From: Haematobia irritans
Taxonomy: Eukaryota > Arthropoda > Insecta > Diptera > Muscidae
Reading direction: 5' to 3'
DNA length: 64,000 nucleotides
Assembly: GCF_050003625.1 (NCBI RefSeq)
Contig: NC_134397.1
Location: 263,742,070-263,806,069 of the forward strand
Shown here one piece after another: positions 1-64,000 of the stretch. A program made the position numbers and the translations under genes. Within the stretch, counting starts at the first letter, position 1. Every line of letters begins with the position of its first letter. The notes beneath the pieces were generated by a model that saw only the letters and a program-made list of their open reading frames with translations, had not been told where the DNA came from and made no database searches.

Positions 1-971
1 CAGCCCGCAAAAGAGAGGAGCTGCTATGTCAACAATATTTTGGACATTTATTGATCGTTATTTATGCACAAGAAAAATACCAATCGTAAAATTAAGTTGA
101 GCGATCATAAAATATTGAGGCTAATTGTGAATGCGTTGTTATATCGTCTAACATGCAAAACCGACAAATACAAAATAATAATAACGCATCGAAAATATTC
201 GAGATTTATAAATATTGGGATATTTTTTGGGATAATGTTATATATAGAAAATGTATATATTTTGTAAATAATGACTTATATTTAAATTAAAAAAATAGGA
301 GGTTAAGGATTCTAAAAAAATTTAGAGGGATTTTGTATTAAAAAAAAACATTTCCCAGACAATTTTATTTATAAAATATTAAAATAATTTGCATGCAGTA
401 AAGAAAAAAGTAATAACGAAACCAACGTTTCCTTTAATATATATATTAAAAAAATATGAGGTTTAGGATTCTAAAAAAATTTAGAGGGATTTTGTATTTA
501 AAAAAAATATTTCCCAGAAAATTTTATTTCTAAAATATTAAAATAATTTGCATGCAGAAATGAAAAAGTAATAACGAAACCAACGTTTTCCTTTAATATA
601 AATATTATATAAATACGTTTCCTTTAATTTAAATTTAGATCATAGAAAACAACGATCTAAATTTGATTTTAGGGATTTTTGGTTGGAGTTTAGAAGAACT
701 CTAATTTATAAATTGTTAACAAAAAAATACAAGGTATTAACAACAAAAAGGATTGTTCCAAATATTAATAATAAATGCAAAGTGGTAACTATTTAATTAA
801 AAAATGGTAATATTTTCCAAATTAAAATTTAATTTTTTAAAATAAACTGTATTCTTATTTTTACCATATGAATTTCATAGAGAATTAATTTTGAAGGTTT
901 TAGTTTTTTTAATCTATATTATTATTTTTTTTTTGTACTACAAATCAAAAATCGTCAAAAAAAAACATTAC
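1..971. other. AT-rich non-coding stretch
   Basis: No gene is visible. Apart from the tandem duplication at 298-600, the sequence is low-complexity AT-rich DNA with homopolymer runs. It would be intron of the minus-strand filamin gene if the next filamin exon lies beyond the left edge. Confidence 0.5.
298..600. repeat. Tandem duplication, unit about 158 bp
   Basis: Two adjacent copies (about 298-442 and 457-600) share the blocks GATTCTAAAAAAATTTAGAG, ATTTCCCAGA, AATTTGCATGCAG and ACGAAACCAACGTTT in the same order with few differences. A partial third unit (ACGTTTCCTTTAAT) follows near 614. It looks like a local duplication; no ends of a known mobile element are visible. Confidence 0.75.
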
Positions 972-1203
972 CTTGATGTGTTATAATATAAAATGATGAC
1001 AAAAAATTCAATGGCAAAAAATCGTTTTTATGCAATTCCTCATTCTCTGGTATTAAAGTTTCGTTATAATAAACTTGTGGTTTTTCGACGTGATCACGTT
1101 CCGATACGGTAACTTTATAGTATTTCGGATGATAGTAATAGGTGAAATCTTCCCAAGTAGCTTCTGGAGCTTCGGGTTTTTCACTTAACCAACTGAAATT
1201 CAT
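972..1203 (-). CDS. Candidate alternative first coding exon, possibly of short filamin
   Basis: On the minus strand an ATG at 1203 in good insect context (AAAACATG) opens 77 codons beginning MNFSWLSEKPEAPEATWEDF. The frame reaches a donor, CAAG|GTAATG, with the last exon base at 972. Base composition is clearly less AT-rich than the surroundings. The peptide is acidic and aromatic (TYYYHPKYYK, VEKPQVYYNE) with no signal peptide, membrane segment or recognised domain. The donor leaves one base (G), exactly the phase left by filamin hinge exon 27509-27617, so both could splice to the same downstream filamin exon outside the window. An internal acceptor (TTTCAG|TTGG, first base 1192) would put it in a different phase from the hinge exon, so the first-exon reading is preferred. 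It could instead be the first exon of an unrelated gene nested in the intron. Confidence 0.5.
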
Positions 1204-2112
1204 GTTTTATGATTTTGGTTTGGAATTTATAAAAAAAAAATTGTTTGTTTTTTTTTGTGTTTATATATATATGTATTTGGTAGTTTGTATTTTATTTGCA
1301 AGTTTTGTTGGTTATTTTATTTTATGTAAATTACAACACATACACAGTAGTAGCACAAACACGCACACGAAGTGAAATTTAAAATAAAGACACTTAAAAT
1401 TTAGATTAACATTATTTTTTGTAATCAAAATTCAAAAAAATTGTAAATAAAAAACAAGAATATAGTAAAAGAAAAATCTAATGGAAAAGGAGAAGAAAAA
1501 TGCAAACAATAGTGTATTGGAAAATTGACACCATTTTTATTTTTTTTTTAATAAAAAAAAATCAAATTGCATAAACTTTTTTTAAAAAAGGTGTATATTC
1601 TAAGGGGATATAATAGAGGTTTTGTAGAAAGTTTTGTCGCGTTTATATTTTTGCATTTCAATTCTTTTCTATTTTATGGAATTTGTTCAACTTTCTATAA
1701 AACTCATTTTAAAGTATACATTTTTCCTAAGTTGCTATCTCGAATGTTTATAAGTAGATTTTTGTAAACAAATAAAACGTCTTTGACAAAGTTTCTATTC
1801 AACGATATCATATAAGTGCATATGGCCGCCAAAAAGTATGCAATTATTTAAATGAAAAATTTTAAAAGTAAACAAGTGTACAGCTCTGATTTTATTACGC
1901 ACTGAAATTTTCGAATAAATGAAATGCAATTTATATAGGTATATTTTCCCATTCATTAGAAGGTTTATTATTATTGCTTTATTTATATTCATATTTAAAA
2001 TTATGAGGAATCCTATAAATACCAATTACAAAAATTAAAAAAAAAATCGATCGAAAAATGTATGAGAAAGTAAAGAATTTGTAAATGATTTATCAAAGCT
2101 TTAAATATAGAA
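1204..2112. other. Non-coding; possible 5' leader next to 1204-1400
   Basis: No gene is recognised. Bases 1204-1400 lie directly upstream (minus strand) of the candidate first exon and would hold its leader and promoter. I see A-rich sequence there and a weak initiator-like TTCACTTC near 1370, but no convincing TATA or downstream element. The remainder is AT-rich without repeats I could match elsewhere in the window. Confidence 0.4.
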
Positions 2113-14645: not shown

Positions 14646-14907
14646 TACAGAAAAAAAATTCACGAAAATGTTTCCAATTAAAATTTTAATTGAGTTTTAA
14701 AAAATATTCAATTAAAAATATAATTGATTCAACAAATTTTTTAATTGAAACAAAAATCAATCACAAAAATTAATAGTATCAATTAATTTTTTAATCGGAT
14801 CAATTAATTTTTTAATTTTTAATTGACCTGCAATTAATTTTTTAATTGATACTATTATTTCTGTGATTGAAGACATTTCAATTAAAAAATTAATTAATTT
14901 TTGTGTG
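14646..14907 (+). repeat. CAATTAAT-type AT-rich MITE nested in Helentron-like copy 3
   Basis: TACAGAAAAAAAATTCACG to ATTTTTGTGTGCG. Element sequence on either side (TTTGTCATTCCG left, GTAACACATCGAAATA right) is contiguous in the other copies (compare 3612-3648 reversed), which shows the MITE inserted there. Confidence 0.8.
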
Positions 14908-14937
14908 CGTGTGTAACACATCGAAATAGGCATTACC

Positions 14938-15197
<260 letters not shown>

Positions 15198-15344
15198 TCA
15201 GGGAGAAATTCTAAGACGATATAAGCATGTCGGTATGTCTGTCTGTTGTAATCACGCAGTCTTCTATAATGGCGCTATCGTCCTGAAATTTGGCACAGAT
15301 TCGTTTTTTGTTTGCAGGCACGTCAAGTTCGGAGATGGGCTATA

Positions 15345-27508: not shown

Positions 27509-27617
27509 CAACTACGATGCCTCCGGTGGTGGGTACAGGGAATTTCTCAAATGCTACGGTTCTGTAATTACTATCACTTCTTCCGTTGACTAATTGCTGG
27601 TGCTGTTGTTGGGTTGT
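27509..27617 (-). CDS. cher: Filamin exon: hinge-1 linker, second part
   Basis: On the minus strand, acceptor TTTACAG|ACAACC and donor GTTG|GTAAGT bound 109 nt: 36 codons plus one base. The peptide starts TTQQQHQQLVNGRSDSNYRT and continues to ...FEKFPVPTTGGIVV. It follows in phase 0 from the exon at 33012-33074. The Gln-rich start is an unstructured linker. The segment from Phe to Gly-Gly resembles the first beta strand of the Ig repeat after hinge 1 in vertebrate filamin A. The last base (phase 1) must join an exon outside this window or skipped within it. No other stretch to the left fits as the next constitutive exon. Confidence 0.85.
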
Positions 27618-28079
27618 CTGTAAAGTTTAGGTAAAATAAGAAAAAAAATTCTAATTAGAAACTGGTTTTTGTTATTAAACAATATTTTTTGTTTTGGATA
27701 TAAAGACAATTCATAAAGTGGAATTTTATTAAAATTCCCATAAAACAAATACACGATACACCACAAAAGGATTACATATTAAAGGGTGATTTTACTCCTA
27801 ACCTTAAAAAACCCTTGAATTTGAAATTTATTCTATAAAAATATAAAACAAAAAAATAAATGTGTTAATTGCAATTGTTAATAGTTGTGAACACACATGT
27901 ACAAACAAAATATTATTGCGGTTTTTATTTTTTTGCACATTTTTTTCAAATATTTATGTGTGCACATGTGAGGTTAAATATAAAATAAATATTTAGCAAA
28001 TCCTCAAAATTTAATAGAAATGATTTTATATTTACTTCAAAATATATACAAACAAGTGCAAAAACATGTTGTACACTTG

Positions 28080-33011: not shown

Positions 33012-33074
33012 CTGCGTTGTGGTCTTTATAACCTGTGTATGTTCTTCGATGTATTCGCTATATTGTTCGACAGC
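33012..33074 (-). CDS. cher: Filamin exon: hinge-1 linker, first part
   Basis: Minus-strand exon of 63 nt (21 codons) between acceptor TTTTTTATAG|GCTG and donor ACGCAG|GTAAGG, encoding AVEQYSEYIEEHTQVIKTTT plus Gln. Both ends are phase 0. Upstream it joins the Ig repeat exon ending ...GSFSIK (62937); downstream it joins the Gln-rich exon at 27617. The joined reading is uninterrupted, and both splice sites match consensus, which is why so small an exon is credible. It encodes the start of the linker after the repeat equivalent to human filamin A repeat 15. A symmetric (phase 0/0) exon of this sort could be skipped without shifting the frame. Confidence 0.85.
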
Positions 33075-50015: not shown

Positions 50016-51051
50016 AATTTTTTTTGTTTTTTTTTTATTGTAAGTTTATTTCTACATAAATTTAAATTCATTCTTTTAATGGCCTCAGCGCCAAGTAGGC
50101 ATTGTAGAGGCAAGCGGCAACATTATTATACATAATAAAAAAAAAAAAAAATATTTATAGAATTAAATAACTGATTGATATAGTATATATTATATAAGTA
50201 ATTACAAAATATTTATTTGTTTCCTTAATATATAATCTTTACATGCTCTTTTATATGCTGAGATTCTGGTAATGGATTTTATACTCTGTGGTAGATTATT
50301 ATATTTGAAGCTTGCAGTAAAATCTATTCTTTGTTTACTTTTTTCCAATCTGCACAGCGGAAGTCTGAGATTCTGCTGATTTCTTGTATTGCAATGTGTC
50401 TGATTTTGTATAAAATTTATTGTATGGTGACCCAATTTATGAATGCATTTATACACGAAAACTAGAACCTGATATTCATGAATTCCATAAATGGTTTGTT
50501 GGGTAGTTCAGTGGTAAATTATAAATAACTTTCAATGCCCTATTTTGACAGAATTGTAGCGATCTTAAAGCATTACAATTACTGTTGTAGCCATAAACAC
50601 TAGCTAAATATTTCACATGCGACATTATCAAAGATTGATAAATCATTAGTTTTGTCCTCTCATCGAGTTTCCATTTCAATTTATACAATATACCAATGGC
50701 TGGAGCAATCTTTCTCTTCACATCATCAATATGCAAGTCCCATGACATGTTACTTTGGAGAACAATACCCAAATGCTTGACATGATTTGTCTCCTCAATG
50801 GCCCTTCCATCAATAACCACGCGAAATTCATGATTTATAGCTGTAGAATGAGGGCGAAAACGAACAACTTTTGTCTTGCTTGGATTGATAAGTAAACCAT
50901 TGATCCTGGCAAACTCAAACAACATCGCTGAATCCCTTTCCATGAAAGATTTTAAAGCCACGTCATACTTATAAGGATAAAAAAGGCAAACATCATCCGC
51001 AAACATGAAAAGCTTGCCAACAAAGTCCATATTCATTAGGTCATTCAAATA

Positions 51052-51984
51052 AAGGGTGATTTGTTAAGAGCTTGATAACTTTAAAAAAAAAAAAAACGCA
51101 TAAAATTTGCAAAATCTCATCGGTTCTTTATTTGAAACGTTAGATTGGTCCATGACATTTACTTTTTGAAGATAATTTCATTTAAATGTTGACCGCGGCT
51201 GCGTCTTAGGTGGTCCATTCGGAAAGTCCAATTTTGGGCAACTTTTTCGAGCATTTCGGCCGGAATAGCCCGAATTTCTTCGGAAATGTTGTCTTCCAAA
51301 GCTGGAATAGTTGCTGGCTTATTTCTGTAGACTTTAGACTTGACGTAGCCCCACAAAAAATAGTCTAAAGGCGTCAAATCGCATGATCTTGGTGGCCAAG
51401 TTACCAGTCCATTTCTTGAGATGAATTGTTCTCCGAAGTTTTCCCTCAAAATGGCCATAGAATCGCGAGCTGTGTGGCATGTAGCGCCATCTTGTTGAAA
51501 CCACATGTCAACCAAGTTCAGTTCTTCCATTTTTGGCAACAAAAAGTTTGTTAGCATCGAACGATAGCGATCGCCATTCACCGTAACGTTGCGTCCAACA
51601 GCATCTTTGAAAAAATACGGTCCAATGATTCCACCAGCGTACAAACCACACCAAACAGTGCATTTTTCGGGATGCATGGGCAGTTCTTGAACGGCTTCTG
51701 GTTGCTCTTCACTCCAAATGCGGCAATTTTGCTTATTTACGTAGCCATTCAACCAGAAATGAGCCTCATCGCTGAACAAAATTTGTCGATAAACACATTT
51801 CGAACCGAACACTGATTTTGGTAATAAAATTCAATGATTTGCAAGCGTTGCTCGTTAGTAAGTCTATTCATGATGAAATGTCAAAGCATACTGAGCATCT
51901 TTCTCTTTGACACCATGTCTGAAATCCCACGTGATCTGTCAAATACTAATGCATGAAAATCCTAACCTCAAAAGAATCACCCTT
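51052..51984 (-). mobile_element. Mariner-like element (DD41D type) inserted in the LINE
   Basis: Ends AAGGGTGATTTGTTAAGAG (left) and, complemented, AAGGGTGATTCTTTTGAGG (right) are flanked by TA at 51050-51051 and 51985-51986, the standard Tc1/mariner target duplication. It is 933 bp, shorter than a full element of about 1.2-1.3 kb, because of an internal deletion in the transposase gene. It is the youngest layer of a three-deep nest (array, LINE, mariner). Confidence 0.92.
51159..51871 (-). pseudogene. Defective DD41D mariner-like transposase
   Basis: The natural start is probably the ATG at 51871 (MNRLTNEQRLQIIEFYYQNQ). After about 20 codons the reading jumps, with a change of frame near 51815, to YRQILFSDEAHF, so the helix-turn-helix DNA-binding region has been deleted. 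The catalytic core is intact: D in FSDEAHF, D in WFQQDGATCHTA, and D in CDLTPLDYFLWG, with 41 residues between the second and third. The C-terminus is complete (LRRSRGQHLNEIIFKK, stop near 51159). It is expected to be inactive for lack of DNA binding. Confidence 0.88.
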
Positions 51985-52555
51985 TATATAGCAAATAGTA
52001 GGGGCCCAAGACCACTACCCTGTGGTACACCATAGCAAACGTTACCCAAAAAACTTCGTGTATCCTTAATTTGCACAAACTGTTTCCTATTTGTCAAATA
52101 ACTTCTGAATAATTTAAGTTCAGGCCCTTGAACACCATAACATTCAAGTTTCTTCAACAAGATTTGATGATCAACCATATCAAATTCTTTGGTGAAATCA
52201 AAAAATATTCCTGCGACTCCACAATAACCTTTATCTAAACCCTGGCAAACATAACGCATTACATTCAAGACTGCATCCTCTGTACCACATCCTCTCCTAA
52301 AACCAAATTGCAGATCATAGAGCAACTTATTACATTCAAAATAATTCGACAGTTTCTCGTATATAATCCTCTCAAAGACTTTATCGATAGTTGAGAGTAT
52401 AGAAATGGGTCTAAAATCTCCCTCAGATTTTGGATTAGCTTTCTTAGGAATTGGAACAGTTTTGTGAATCTTTAGAATATCTGGATATTCGCAAGAATAA
52501 ATCATCTTATTGAAAATCTCTTTGAGGAATGGTGAAATCTTCTCTACACATTCTT

Positions 52556-56252: not shown

Positions 56253-57173
56253 ATGGGTGGTTAAATTGTAAGGGCCGATGTTGAATGTGAACCACACCTA
56301 AACGCCAAGTTTTTTCCGAATTTTATTTGACATTTCTCTATTTCAGACTTACTCAATTTGAACCATGGAAAGATACACAATCCAACAACGTGTTAAATGG
56401 TTCCAAGACATGGCAACCGTGGATGATCAATTTTCGAAGAAAATCATCTTCAGTGATGAGGCACATTTTCACCTCAGTGGATTCGTCAATAAACAGAATT
56501 GCCGCATTTGGGCGAATGAGAATCCAAGAGTGATTGTCGAAAAACCAATGCACCCACAAAGAGTGACTGTTCGGTGCGGTTTATGGGCTGGCGGCATCAT
56601 CGGGCTGTATTTTTTTCCAAAATGAGGCCGGTCAGGCAGTTACTGTGAATGGTGTTCGCTATCGTGAGATGATAACGAACTTTTTATGGTCCGAATTGGA
56701 AGATATGGATGTGGACAATATGTGGTTTCAGCAGAACGGTGCCACTTGCCACACAGCTAACGAAACAATGGCTCTTTTGCGCAACAAATTCAATGGCCGT
56801 GTTATCTCACGTAATGGCGATGTCAATTGGCCGCCAAGATCATGTGATTTGACACCGTTGGACTTTTTTCTTTGGGGTTATTTGAAAGAAAAGGTGTTCG
56901 TCGATAAGCCAGCAACAATTCAAGAGCTAAAGGATGAGATAATTCGGCACATTAACGGCATAGAACCTCCATTATGCCTCAGCGTCATCGAAAATTTGGA
57001 CCATCGGATGAAGGTGTGCCACCGAGGTCGCGGCGCCCATTTGGCCGATATTTTGTTCCATACACAATTGAGTAATACCAATATATCAAAATAAACTAAA
57101 ATTACAAAAATTTCCAAAATAGTTTGTGTTTTATTCAAAATCAACATCGGCCCTTGAAATTTTAACCACCCTT
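56253..57173 (+). mobile_element. Mariner-like element (DD41D type) in Helentron-like copy 4
   Basis: Ends ATGGGTGGTTAAATTGTAAG (left) and, complemented, AAGGGTGGTTAAAATTTCAA, with AGGGCCGATGTTGA further in on both sides. TA flanks both ends (56251-56252, 57174-57175). 921 bp. The transposase is related to that at 51159-51871 but the ends differ (GGGTGGTT against GGGTGATT), so the two are separate subfamilies. Confidence 0.9.
56365..57094 (+). pseudogene. Defective DD41D mariner-like transposase with catalytic D to N
   Basis: The start MERYTIQQRVK is followed directly by WFQDMATVDDQFSKKIIFSD, so the DNA-binding region is deleted at nearly the same place as in the element at 51052. A one-base insertion in the T run near 56610-56617 shifts the frame (stop at 56625). 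The second catalytic residue is Asn (WFQQNGATCHTA) where the relative at 51159 has Asp. The third Asp (CDLTPLDFFLWG) is kept, 41 residues on. The C-terminus (HRGRGAHLADILFHTQ) is intact. Three independent lesions mean it is inactive. Confidence 0.9.
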
Positions 57174-57832: not shown

Positions 57833-58608
57833 ACAGGTTGGCTGATAAGTCCCCGGTCTGACACATAGTCGTTAGTATTAAATGCATATTATTTTTATAT
57901 AGTACCAACCTTCAAATGATACGTGTCGAAATTTGACGTCTGTAAGTCAATTAGTTTGTGAGATAGAGCGTCTTTTGTGAAGCAACTTTTGTTATTGTGA
58001 AAAAAATGGGAAAAAAAGGAATTTCGTGTTTTGATAAAATACTGTTTTCTGAAGGTAAAAAATACGGTGGAAGCAAAAACTTGGCTTGATAATGAGTTTC
58101 CGGACTCTGCCCCAGGGAAATCAACAATAATTGATTGGTATGCAAAATTCAAGCGTGGTGAAATGAGCACGGAGGACGGTGAACGCAGTGGACGCACGAA
58201 AGAGGTGGTTACCGACGAAAACATCAAAAAACTCCACAAAATGATTTGGAATGACCGTAAAATGAAGTTGATCGAGATAGTAGAGGCCTTAAAGATATCA
58301 AAGGAACGTGTTGGTCATATCATTCATCAATATTTGAATATGCTGGCCCCCAGCGACTTTTTCTTGTTCTCAGATCTCAAAAGGATGCTCGCAGGGAAAA
58401 AACTTGGCTGCAATGAAGAGGTGATCGCTGAAACTGAGGCCTATTTTGAGGCAAAACCGAAGGAGTACTACCAAAATGGTATCAAAAATTGGAAGGTCGT
58501 TATAATCGTTGTATCGCTCTTGAAGGGAACTATGTTGAATAATAAAAACGAATTTTGACAAAAAATGTGGTTTTCTTTGTTAAACCGGGGACTTATCAGC
58601 CAACCTGT
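57833..58608 (+). mobile_element. Mariner element, internally deleted
   Basis: Inverted ends ACAGGTTGGCTGATAAGTCC and GGACTTATCAGCCAACCTGT (about 26 bp, near perfect, extending through CCGGT), flanked by TA on both sides (57831-57832, 58609-58610). 776 bp against about 1.3 kb for a full mariner. It sits at the inner edge of Helentron-like copy 4. Confidence 0.93.
58006..58558 (+). pseudogene. Defective mariner transposase lacking two catalytic residues
   Basis: The N-terminal helix-turn-helix part is good (NTVEAKTWLDNEFP, STIIDWYAKFKRGEMST, ISKERVGHIIHQYLNM). The frame then jumps straight to LAPSDFFLFSDLKRMLAG, so the segment with the first two catalytic Asp residues is deleted; the third (APSD) remains. 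An extra G after the ATG at 58006 shifts the first codons. A missing base near 58487 sends the last 25 codons out of frame; the correct register would end ...ALEGNYVE. It retains DNA binding but not catalysis, the converse of the other two elements. Confidence 0.9.
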
Positions 58609-62936: not shown

Positions 62937-63072
62937 CTTAATTGAGAAGCTACCATTGGGTATATCTTTGCCACCGAATTTAACATTGATATCATAATCG
63001 CCAGGATCATTTAGGGCATAGAAGATATCGAAGAAACCATCCTTTTCAATGACATCGATGTCAACGATTTCC
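62937..63072 (-). CDS. cher: Filamin exon: end of the Ig repeat before hinge 1
   Basis: 136 nt between acceptor CAACCAG|GGAAAT and donor AAG|GTAGTT. The first base completes a Lys split with the upstream exon, then 45 codons begin EIVDIDVIEKDGFFDIFYAL and end ...GGKDIPNGSFSIK. DGFFDIFYALNDPGDYDINV is the filamin signature (DGTY...Y.....PG.Y.I.V) and IPNGSF replaces the usual IPGSPF. It matches the position of human filamin A repeat 15, directly before hinge 1. Reading past the donor gives Val-Val-stop, so an unspliced message would encode a filamin ending here. Confidence 0.92.
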
Positions 63073-63153: not shown

Positions 63154-63606
63154 TTTCCTGTCTTTGAAGCAATTTTACAGGTCACAGCACCATCACCTGC
63201 CTCTCTGGCATCCACGGTTAAATGACTCTTACTACCGGAAGGTTGGATTTTGGGAGCCTCTTCAACCAATTTACATTTCTTGGCTTCACCCGTTTGGAAG
63301 GCTTCCAATTTGAAAGGTGATCCTTCAATTTCTTGACCTCCATACTTAATGCTAACATTGTAAGTGCCGCACTCATCTGGGACAAAGGAGACCACATAGG
63401 TACCATCGTTGATTTCTTGAAGGCGGGGTTTAATATGTTTGCCTTTGGGATTCTTAATATCCACATTGATATCAGCTTGGCCTGCCTTTTTGGTATCGAC
63501 TTCAAATTCAGCAGGTCTGGAGGCAGGAGTTTTCCTCTTGTCATTGACACCCTTGATCTTAACCTTTTTGGGTTCGGACTTTGGGAATACAGTCATAACG
63601 AAGGGA
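63154..63606 (-). CDS. cher: Filamin exon: Ig repeats equivalent to 14 and 15
   Basis: 453 nt; acceptor TTTTTTTAG|TCCC, donor GGAAA|GTAAGT (phase 2 in, phase 2 out). It completes the previous repeat (SPFVMTVFP), encodes a full repeat (about KKVKIKGVNDKRK to EGSPFKLEAF) and starts the next (GEAKKCKL...CKIASKTGK). The repeat hallmarks DTKKAGQADINV, NDGTYVVSFVPDECGTYNV and YGGQEIEGSPF are clear. Filamin is an actin cross-linking dimer; these Ig repeats form the rod and bind partner proteins. The neighbouring introns are short (81 and 66 bp), in contrast to the giant intron downstream. Confidence 0.95.
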
Positions 63607-63672: not shown

Positions 63673-64000
63673 CTGCAAGGCACTTCAGTATCAGCAAAGG
63701 TTATGGTGCAAGTCAAAACGGATCCCTCCTTGGGTGGTGAGTAATGGACACAATAGATACCATCACCCTTTTCTTCCACTCGCAAATCCTCTATGGGTTT
63801 ACCTTCTGAATTTTGTATTTTCACAGCAATACGACCGGGGCCAGCATCTTGGACATCAATAAAGAAATGTGTTGGCACAGCCTCACGCACTTCGCCATGT
63901 TCAATGCCAGGGCCATAGACCTTGACCTTTGAAGGATCCGAACGTTCCTCCACATATACGGTGAATGGCGAACCGGGTATATGTTTATCAGCAAAACGTA
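63673..64000 (-). CDS. cher: Filamin exon, cut by the window edge: Ig repeats equivalent to 12 (end) and 13
   Basis: Open from the window edge to donor TGCAG|GTAAGT at 63673 (phase 2). It encodes the end of one repeat (RFADKHIPGSPFTVYV) and most of the next, from DPSKVKVYGPGIEHGEV through AGPGRIAVKIQNSEGKPIED and GDGIYCVHYSPPKEG to FADTEVPC, which continues as SPF in the next exon. VYGPGIE is the characteristic filamin GPGL/GPGI turn. Among fly genes, cheerio is the orthologue of vertebrate filamin A; the more divergent filamin-type gene jitterbug is the alternative, less likely given the close match of repeat order and hinge. Confidence 0.94.

Follow-up and report, generated by a model that had tools for sequence, protein, structure and literature searches.

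A candidate conserved first coding exon for a short filamin in Haematobia irritans

Short filamins of Drosophila and the filamin gene of Haematobia irritans

The closest described systems are the short filamins of Drosophila. In the available part of PMC5173320, FLN90, which predominates among the filamins of larval fly muscle and is required at the neuromuscular synapse, is presented as no more than the C-terminal part of the long protein, with nine predicted repeats and appearing as a doublet on blots. The cloning primer given there (ATGCCTAGCGGTAAAGTAGAC) encodes MPSGKVD, from which we see that the cloned form starts in the exon that opens the repeat following the hinge, without the 77-residue head described below. 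The accessible text of PMC5521747 assigns the small Cheerio isoforms CherA and CherB to a 90–100 kD class, and gives CherA as the last 8 Ig domains; a count that differs from the nine of FLN90 (PMC5173320). In the sections available of a third study, the promoter that drives the short transcript, Cher90, was deleted in Drosophila, the C-terminal part of the protein is numbered as domains 14–22 (nine), with domains 14–19 forming the mechanosensor region, and a figure legend mentions untranslated exons without naming the transcripts that hold them (PMC5011733).

Against this background we examined a 64,000-nucleotide stretch of the Haematobia irritans genome (hereafter ‘the window’), which carries part of the filamin gene, the orthologue of cheerio, on its minus strand. 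The parts of the long form that lie within it are:

63673..64000, minus strand: filamin repeat exon, running off the window (protein comparison, including P0029)
63154..63606, minus strand: filamin repeat exon (protein comparison, including P0029)
62937..63072, minus strand: filamin repeat exon 5' of the hinge (protein comparison, including P0029)
33012..33074, minus strand: hinge exon AVEQYSEYIEEHTQVIKTTTQ (match to P0029; use of a second donor, after 33000, brings in VRRQ)
27803..27832, minus strand: 30-base hinge micro-exon, NKFQIQGFFK (10 of 10 residues match P0029; splice sites read)
27509..27617, minus strand: final exon of the long-form hinge, TTQQQHQQLVNG...FPVPTTGGIVV plus G, ending in the same phase as the exon at 972..1203

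Since the 2224-residue protein P0029 matches the exons of the window, with 306 of 307 residues across the three repeat exons and 36 residues in the last hinge exon, we take it to be the long filamin of the species itself. Hinge 1 appears to be spliced in three ways, through tandem donors (33074–33000, with or without VRRQ) and the micro-exon at 27832–27803; the filamins P0016, P0023 and P0035 show the three corresponding lengths. Long frames resembling pieces of a reverse transcriptase and of transposases, as judged by eye, lie inside the gene at 50202–52553 (minus), 56567–57094 (plus) and 58001–58558 (plus).

The intron that begins at 27509 extends past position 1 of the window and is therefore longer than 27 kb, with the next filamin exon lying beyond; a long run of TA repeats within it, at 14890–15224, is open in several frames as YIYI. 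It is in this intron, after the hinge exons and before the next repeat, that the candidate exon is located.

A conserved reading frame in the intron after the hinge

The elements of the candidate exon, read on the minus strand, are as follows:

972..1203, minus strand: candidate first coding exon of a short filamin (open reading frame plus donor; seven of seven matches at full length; relatives in P0008 and P0015)
970..971, minus strand: splice donor GT, in the context CAAG|GTAATG, at which similarity among the seven relatives ends
1207..1209, minus strand: in-frame stop TAA, two codons 5' of the ATG at 1203
1204..1700, minus strand: putative 5' untranslated region with an internal promoter, placed by position and approximate in extent

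Starting from the ATG at 1203–1201, in the context AAAC-ATG, the frame runs through 77 sense codons to G|GTAATG, with 972 as the last exon base; the 232 bases of the exon thus comprise 77 codons plus one base. The last hinge exon (27617–27509) likewise leaves a single base at its donor (...GTAGTT G|GTAAGTT), and in both cases that base is G, which bears out the initial annotation in describing a 77-codon frame, opened by an ATG, with a one-base donor in the phase of 27509. The TAA lying two codons upstream of the ATG argues against the frame being read into from an exon further 5'. In base composition the exon (GC 0.33) stands beside 500-base flanks of 0.21 and 0.19 and an intron-wide value of 0.30.

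The peptide was searched against approximately 5.8 billion proteins at E ≤ 10, and all seven candidates returned proved to be matches; these span the full 77 residues at 66–82% identity (E 5.3e-36 to 9.6e-27), although P0006 is almost the same sequence as P0007, which means that the seven are not all independent. The same Met opens each of the seven and none reaches further upstream, a pattern that in part reflects the preference of open reading frame calling for Met. With a stop upstream in the window and this shared Met in the seven, the conserved frame shows no in-frame coding sequence 5' of it, although two filamin models described below do use it internally. At the other end, six of the seven read THQ-G-(K/N), as would be expected of a GTAA-type donor that has been read through, and have nothing in common beyond it; the seventh, P0006, a UniRef gene model from Glossina austeni, reads THQ-V before continuing into unrelated, non-filamin residues, which perhaps reflect a wrong terminal exon. 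The initial annotation had named a frame not conserved among related flies as an outcome that would refute its proposal; the frame proves to be conserved. No relatives of the peptide were found in collections of viral contigs and genome contigs.

The peptide is acidic and rich in aromatic residues (10 Glu, 3 Asp, 8 Tyr, 5 Phe and 2 Trp; computed pI 4.85). Searched alone, it matches no Pfam family at E ≤ 1, and would not by itself be classed as a filamin repeat (PF00630); nor does any solved structure resemble it at E ≤ 10. AlphaFold2, run on the peptide with eight sequences, returned a mean pLDDT of 42.5 and no confident fold.

Upstream of the exon, a scan of 2 kb for initiator, TATA and downstream promoter elements gave nothing convincing as a core promoter: four initiator-like matches, none with a downstream element and one (at 2086) with a TATA-like match. 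A tandem array of a 29-base unit, AAAATTTTGACAAAATTTTCTATAGAAAT, occupies 2349–2884 on the plus strand, about 1.1 kb upstream of the exon start.

Relatives within filamin models and competing explanations

The junction between the candidate exon and the next repeat in Haematobia irritans was deduced from P0029, which reads ...FPVPTTGGIVV[A]EVKMPSGKVDKP, with the residue encoded across the junction in brackets; because this residue is Ala after a donor base of G, the exon following the hinge must begin CN. The same arrangement, G|CN, is seen in long fly filamins (...GGIVV[A]EVKMPSGK), and the exon at 972..1203, joined likewise, would give ...YIITHQ[A]EVKMPSGKVDKP (that is, THQ[A]EVKMPSGK).

Relatives of the exon were also sought within filamin models of other insects. 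A search with a lengthened query, counting proteins of approximately 762–2424 amino acids, gave one match from six candidates, P0008 of Glossina morsitans, in which residues 11–77 of the exon peptide follow ...GGIVV at 66% identity over 67 residues, with 13 non-filamin residues, looking like translated intron, standing between the exon relative and AEVKMPSGK. A further search drew on the best 120 of 279 filamin matches, all of at least 1845 amino acids, and here BLAST (E ≤ 1) found the exon in two of the 120: P0008 again, and P0015 from the ant Temnothorax longispinosus. In the ant protein an in-frame join places the relative between hinge and repeat, reading ...DFAPLIFQSIFYVDTKK[A]EVKMPSGN (...YVDTKK[A]EVKMPSGN), where four long forms from two Temnothorax species have GGTVT[S]EVKMPSGN instead. 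The placement proposed at the outset, after the hinge and before the next repeat, is in this way matched by the position of the relatives in both fly and ant. Within the best 120 of 279, a hinge-type junction was recognised by pattern in 108; the others comprise the two that hold the exon and ten more that do not fit the pattern.

A profile built from the window peptide and its seven relatives, with the ant sequence excluded, picked out a single one of 119 filamins, P0015, at 34.0 bits (E 1.9e-10); 50 column-shuffled control profiles scored at most 6.6 bits. The exon is thus probably older than the split between flies and ants, a dating that rests on one ant model. Both filamin models that hold the exon use it internally in a long protein, but look like gene-finder fusions of two transcripts. 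A short-form protein carrying the 77-residue head was not found among proteins of approximately 762–2424 amino acids or among the best 120 of 279 filamins.

The internal position in P0008 and P0015, two of the best 120 of 279 filamins, raises the alternative of a cassette exon, included whole or shortened between hinge and repeat in some long filamins and lengthening hinge 1. Its odds are increased by the presence of seven AGs in hinge phase inside the exon before its last base, although no pyrimidine tract was noted at these when judged by eye. The details of the two models speak against it: the join in P0008 (V followed by EAPP) would need an AG where the window has CCCG, and P0015 drops the last two residues of its hinge exon (VT) and joins at a Met, as would two fused transcripts. 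For inclusion of the whole exon, the TAA two codons before the ATG stands in the way, and the acceptor-like TTTCAG beside the ATG does not share the phase of the hinge donor. We rejected an internal exon entered through this TTTCAG on the grounds of its phase and because five of the seven relatives read MNFGW, the codons of which cannot hold the AG. Altogether we consider a cassette exon improbable. That the filamin intron harbours a small gene of its own, for which 972..1203 would be the first exon spliced to a separate 3' exon, seems more improbable still; such a gene would suit the continuation of Glossina austeni P0006 into non-filamin residues, yet both strand and phase are those of filamin, and the ant model joins its relative directly to a filamin repeat. 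As for a chance open reading frame in an AT-rich intron, length by itself is not significant and would not have sufficed to reject it, there being four ATG-initiated frames of at least 77 codons on the minus strand of 27500–1, that of the exon included, versus 1.5 expected from 200 first-order simulations; it is conservation, at 66–82% identity over 77 residues in all seven matches together with the match in an ant filamin, that leads us to discard this explanation.

A further possibility is less a competitor than a variant of the start-exon reading, with which its odds overlap: a single short mRNA might yield two proteins, one of 100 kDa from the ATG at 1203 and another of 90 kDa by leaky scanning to the Met of EVKMPSGK. 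The masses computed for the two, 100.3 and 90.4 kDa, bracket the 90–100 kD class, and both the doublet on blots and a cloned open reading frame beginning MPSGKVD, as reported in the part of the FLN90 study available, would fit. On the other hand, the context AAAC-ATG looks good by the fly consensus, and an out-of-frame ATG at 1043 intervenes. A separate, non-coding first exon would explain FLN90 equally well, and untranslated exons are mentioned in the accessible legend of PMC5011733. We regard two products from one mRNA as possible but unlikely.

Predicted product and its place among short filamins

The reading we prefer, to which we give a probability of about 0.82, is that 972..1203 is a real and conserved exon, matched in phase, that serves a short filamin as its alternative first coding exon. 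A start exon would account at once for the initial Met, the stop 5' of it and the phase. From the observed coding conservation, place, frame and phase we infer a sequence of events in which an internal promoter within the intron after the hinge exons would give an mRNA starting near the exon; translation would begin at the ATG at 1203, the exon serving as a start rather than an inclusion, and splicing in phase 1 would join it to the exon opening the next repeat (fly domain 14), bypassing the actin-binding domain and N-terminal repeats as well as the hinge. By human numbering this repeat is presumably repeat 16. The predicted protein, assembled from the exon and the rest of P0029, in which nine repeat ends follow the junction, would carry 77 unique residues followed by nine repeats, with a length of 919 amino acids, a mass of 100.3 kDa and no actin-binding domain; starting instead from the Met of EVKMPSGK it would have 838 amino acids and 90.4 kDa.

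The head may do more than extend the N-terminus. When the exon is joined to the next repeats, alignment to chains of human filamin C (2d7n) and filamin B (2ee9) begins at exon residues 63–64 (for 2d7n, PLNFLSSFYIITHQ against PFNLVIPFAVQKGELT), the part derived from the exon being its last 14–15 residues only, and only in this joined form. These positions are taken in the hinge version by PVPTTGGIVV, which scores slightly higher against both 2d7n (67.5 versus 65.4 bits) and 2ee9 (58.0 versus 54.3 bits); for filamin A (2k7p), the alignment starts at the junction in the exon version but takes in the hinge in the other. The human filamin A, B and C entries concerned (2k7p, 5dcp and 2d7n), which we take to be repeats 16–17 or 16, are related to the repeats encoded by the next exon (E 3.2e-53 for 2k7p), and the fly exon would supply a different sequence for the start of the repeat. 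Our model would have the last ~14 exon residues replace ...PVPTTGGIVV of the hinge as the first strand of this repeat, with which the mechanosensor region opens; a plausible but weakly supported replacement. The rest of the head, acidic and rich in tyrosine, would form a tail, perhaps one for binding a partner. The initial description of an acidic, tyrosine-rich N-terminus with no known domain holds for the peptide on its own and needs qualifying at its end, where the last 14 residues can be aligned, on weak evidence, to the beginning of a repeat in human filamin.

Like the predicted product, FLN90 and CherA derive from the 3' portion of the gene, lack the actin-binding domain and fall in the 90–100 kD class, as far as the available parts of their descriptions go. 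The cloned FLN90, starting at MPSGKVD inside the repeat, lacks the 77-residue head as well as the beginning of that repeat, and the predicted protein, with 77 residues placed before it, falls outside the FLN90/CherA type; because the cloned form starts where it does, the exon at 972..1203 should make the larger short form. The expectation that a short filamin begins here is thus upheld in frame, phase and place but not in size, the product of ~100 kDa differing from the documented 90-kDa form. CherB, compared by size class only, matches the predicted 100.3 kDa in lying within 90–100 kD.

The place and the idea of a short filamin start are, as far as the available parts of these studies extend, already known in Drosophila, and the exon fits the larger short form among them; because short fly filamins are known, we see it as a well-supported piece of a known system, not a new one. 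No description of the exon or its peptide, the conserved head, was found in the accessible portions of the literature covered, the first Drosophila filamin papers of 1999 aside. The Drosophila small-ORF gene Purriato was considered and set aside, being linked to filamin in the text available only via the chaperone-assisted autophagy pathway.

A conserved start exon with a sequence of its own means that one short form may carry a head absent from the cloned FLN90, and such a head, at 77 residues, could explain both the FLN90 doublet and the 90–100 kD range; the exon is also a defined target, removable without affecting the long form. More tentatively, and at odds we would put below even, insects from ants to flies may have kept an ancient second start in the filamin gene. 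The short form made from it, lacking an actin-binding domain and opening its mechanosensor region with an exchanged first strand and a conserved head that is acidic and tyrosine-rich, would then be no simple truncation, but a protein whose force sensing or partner binding differs from that of the long form.
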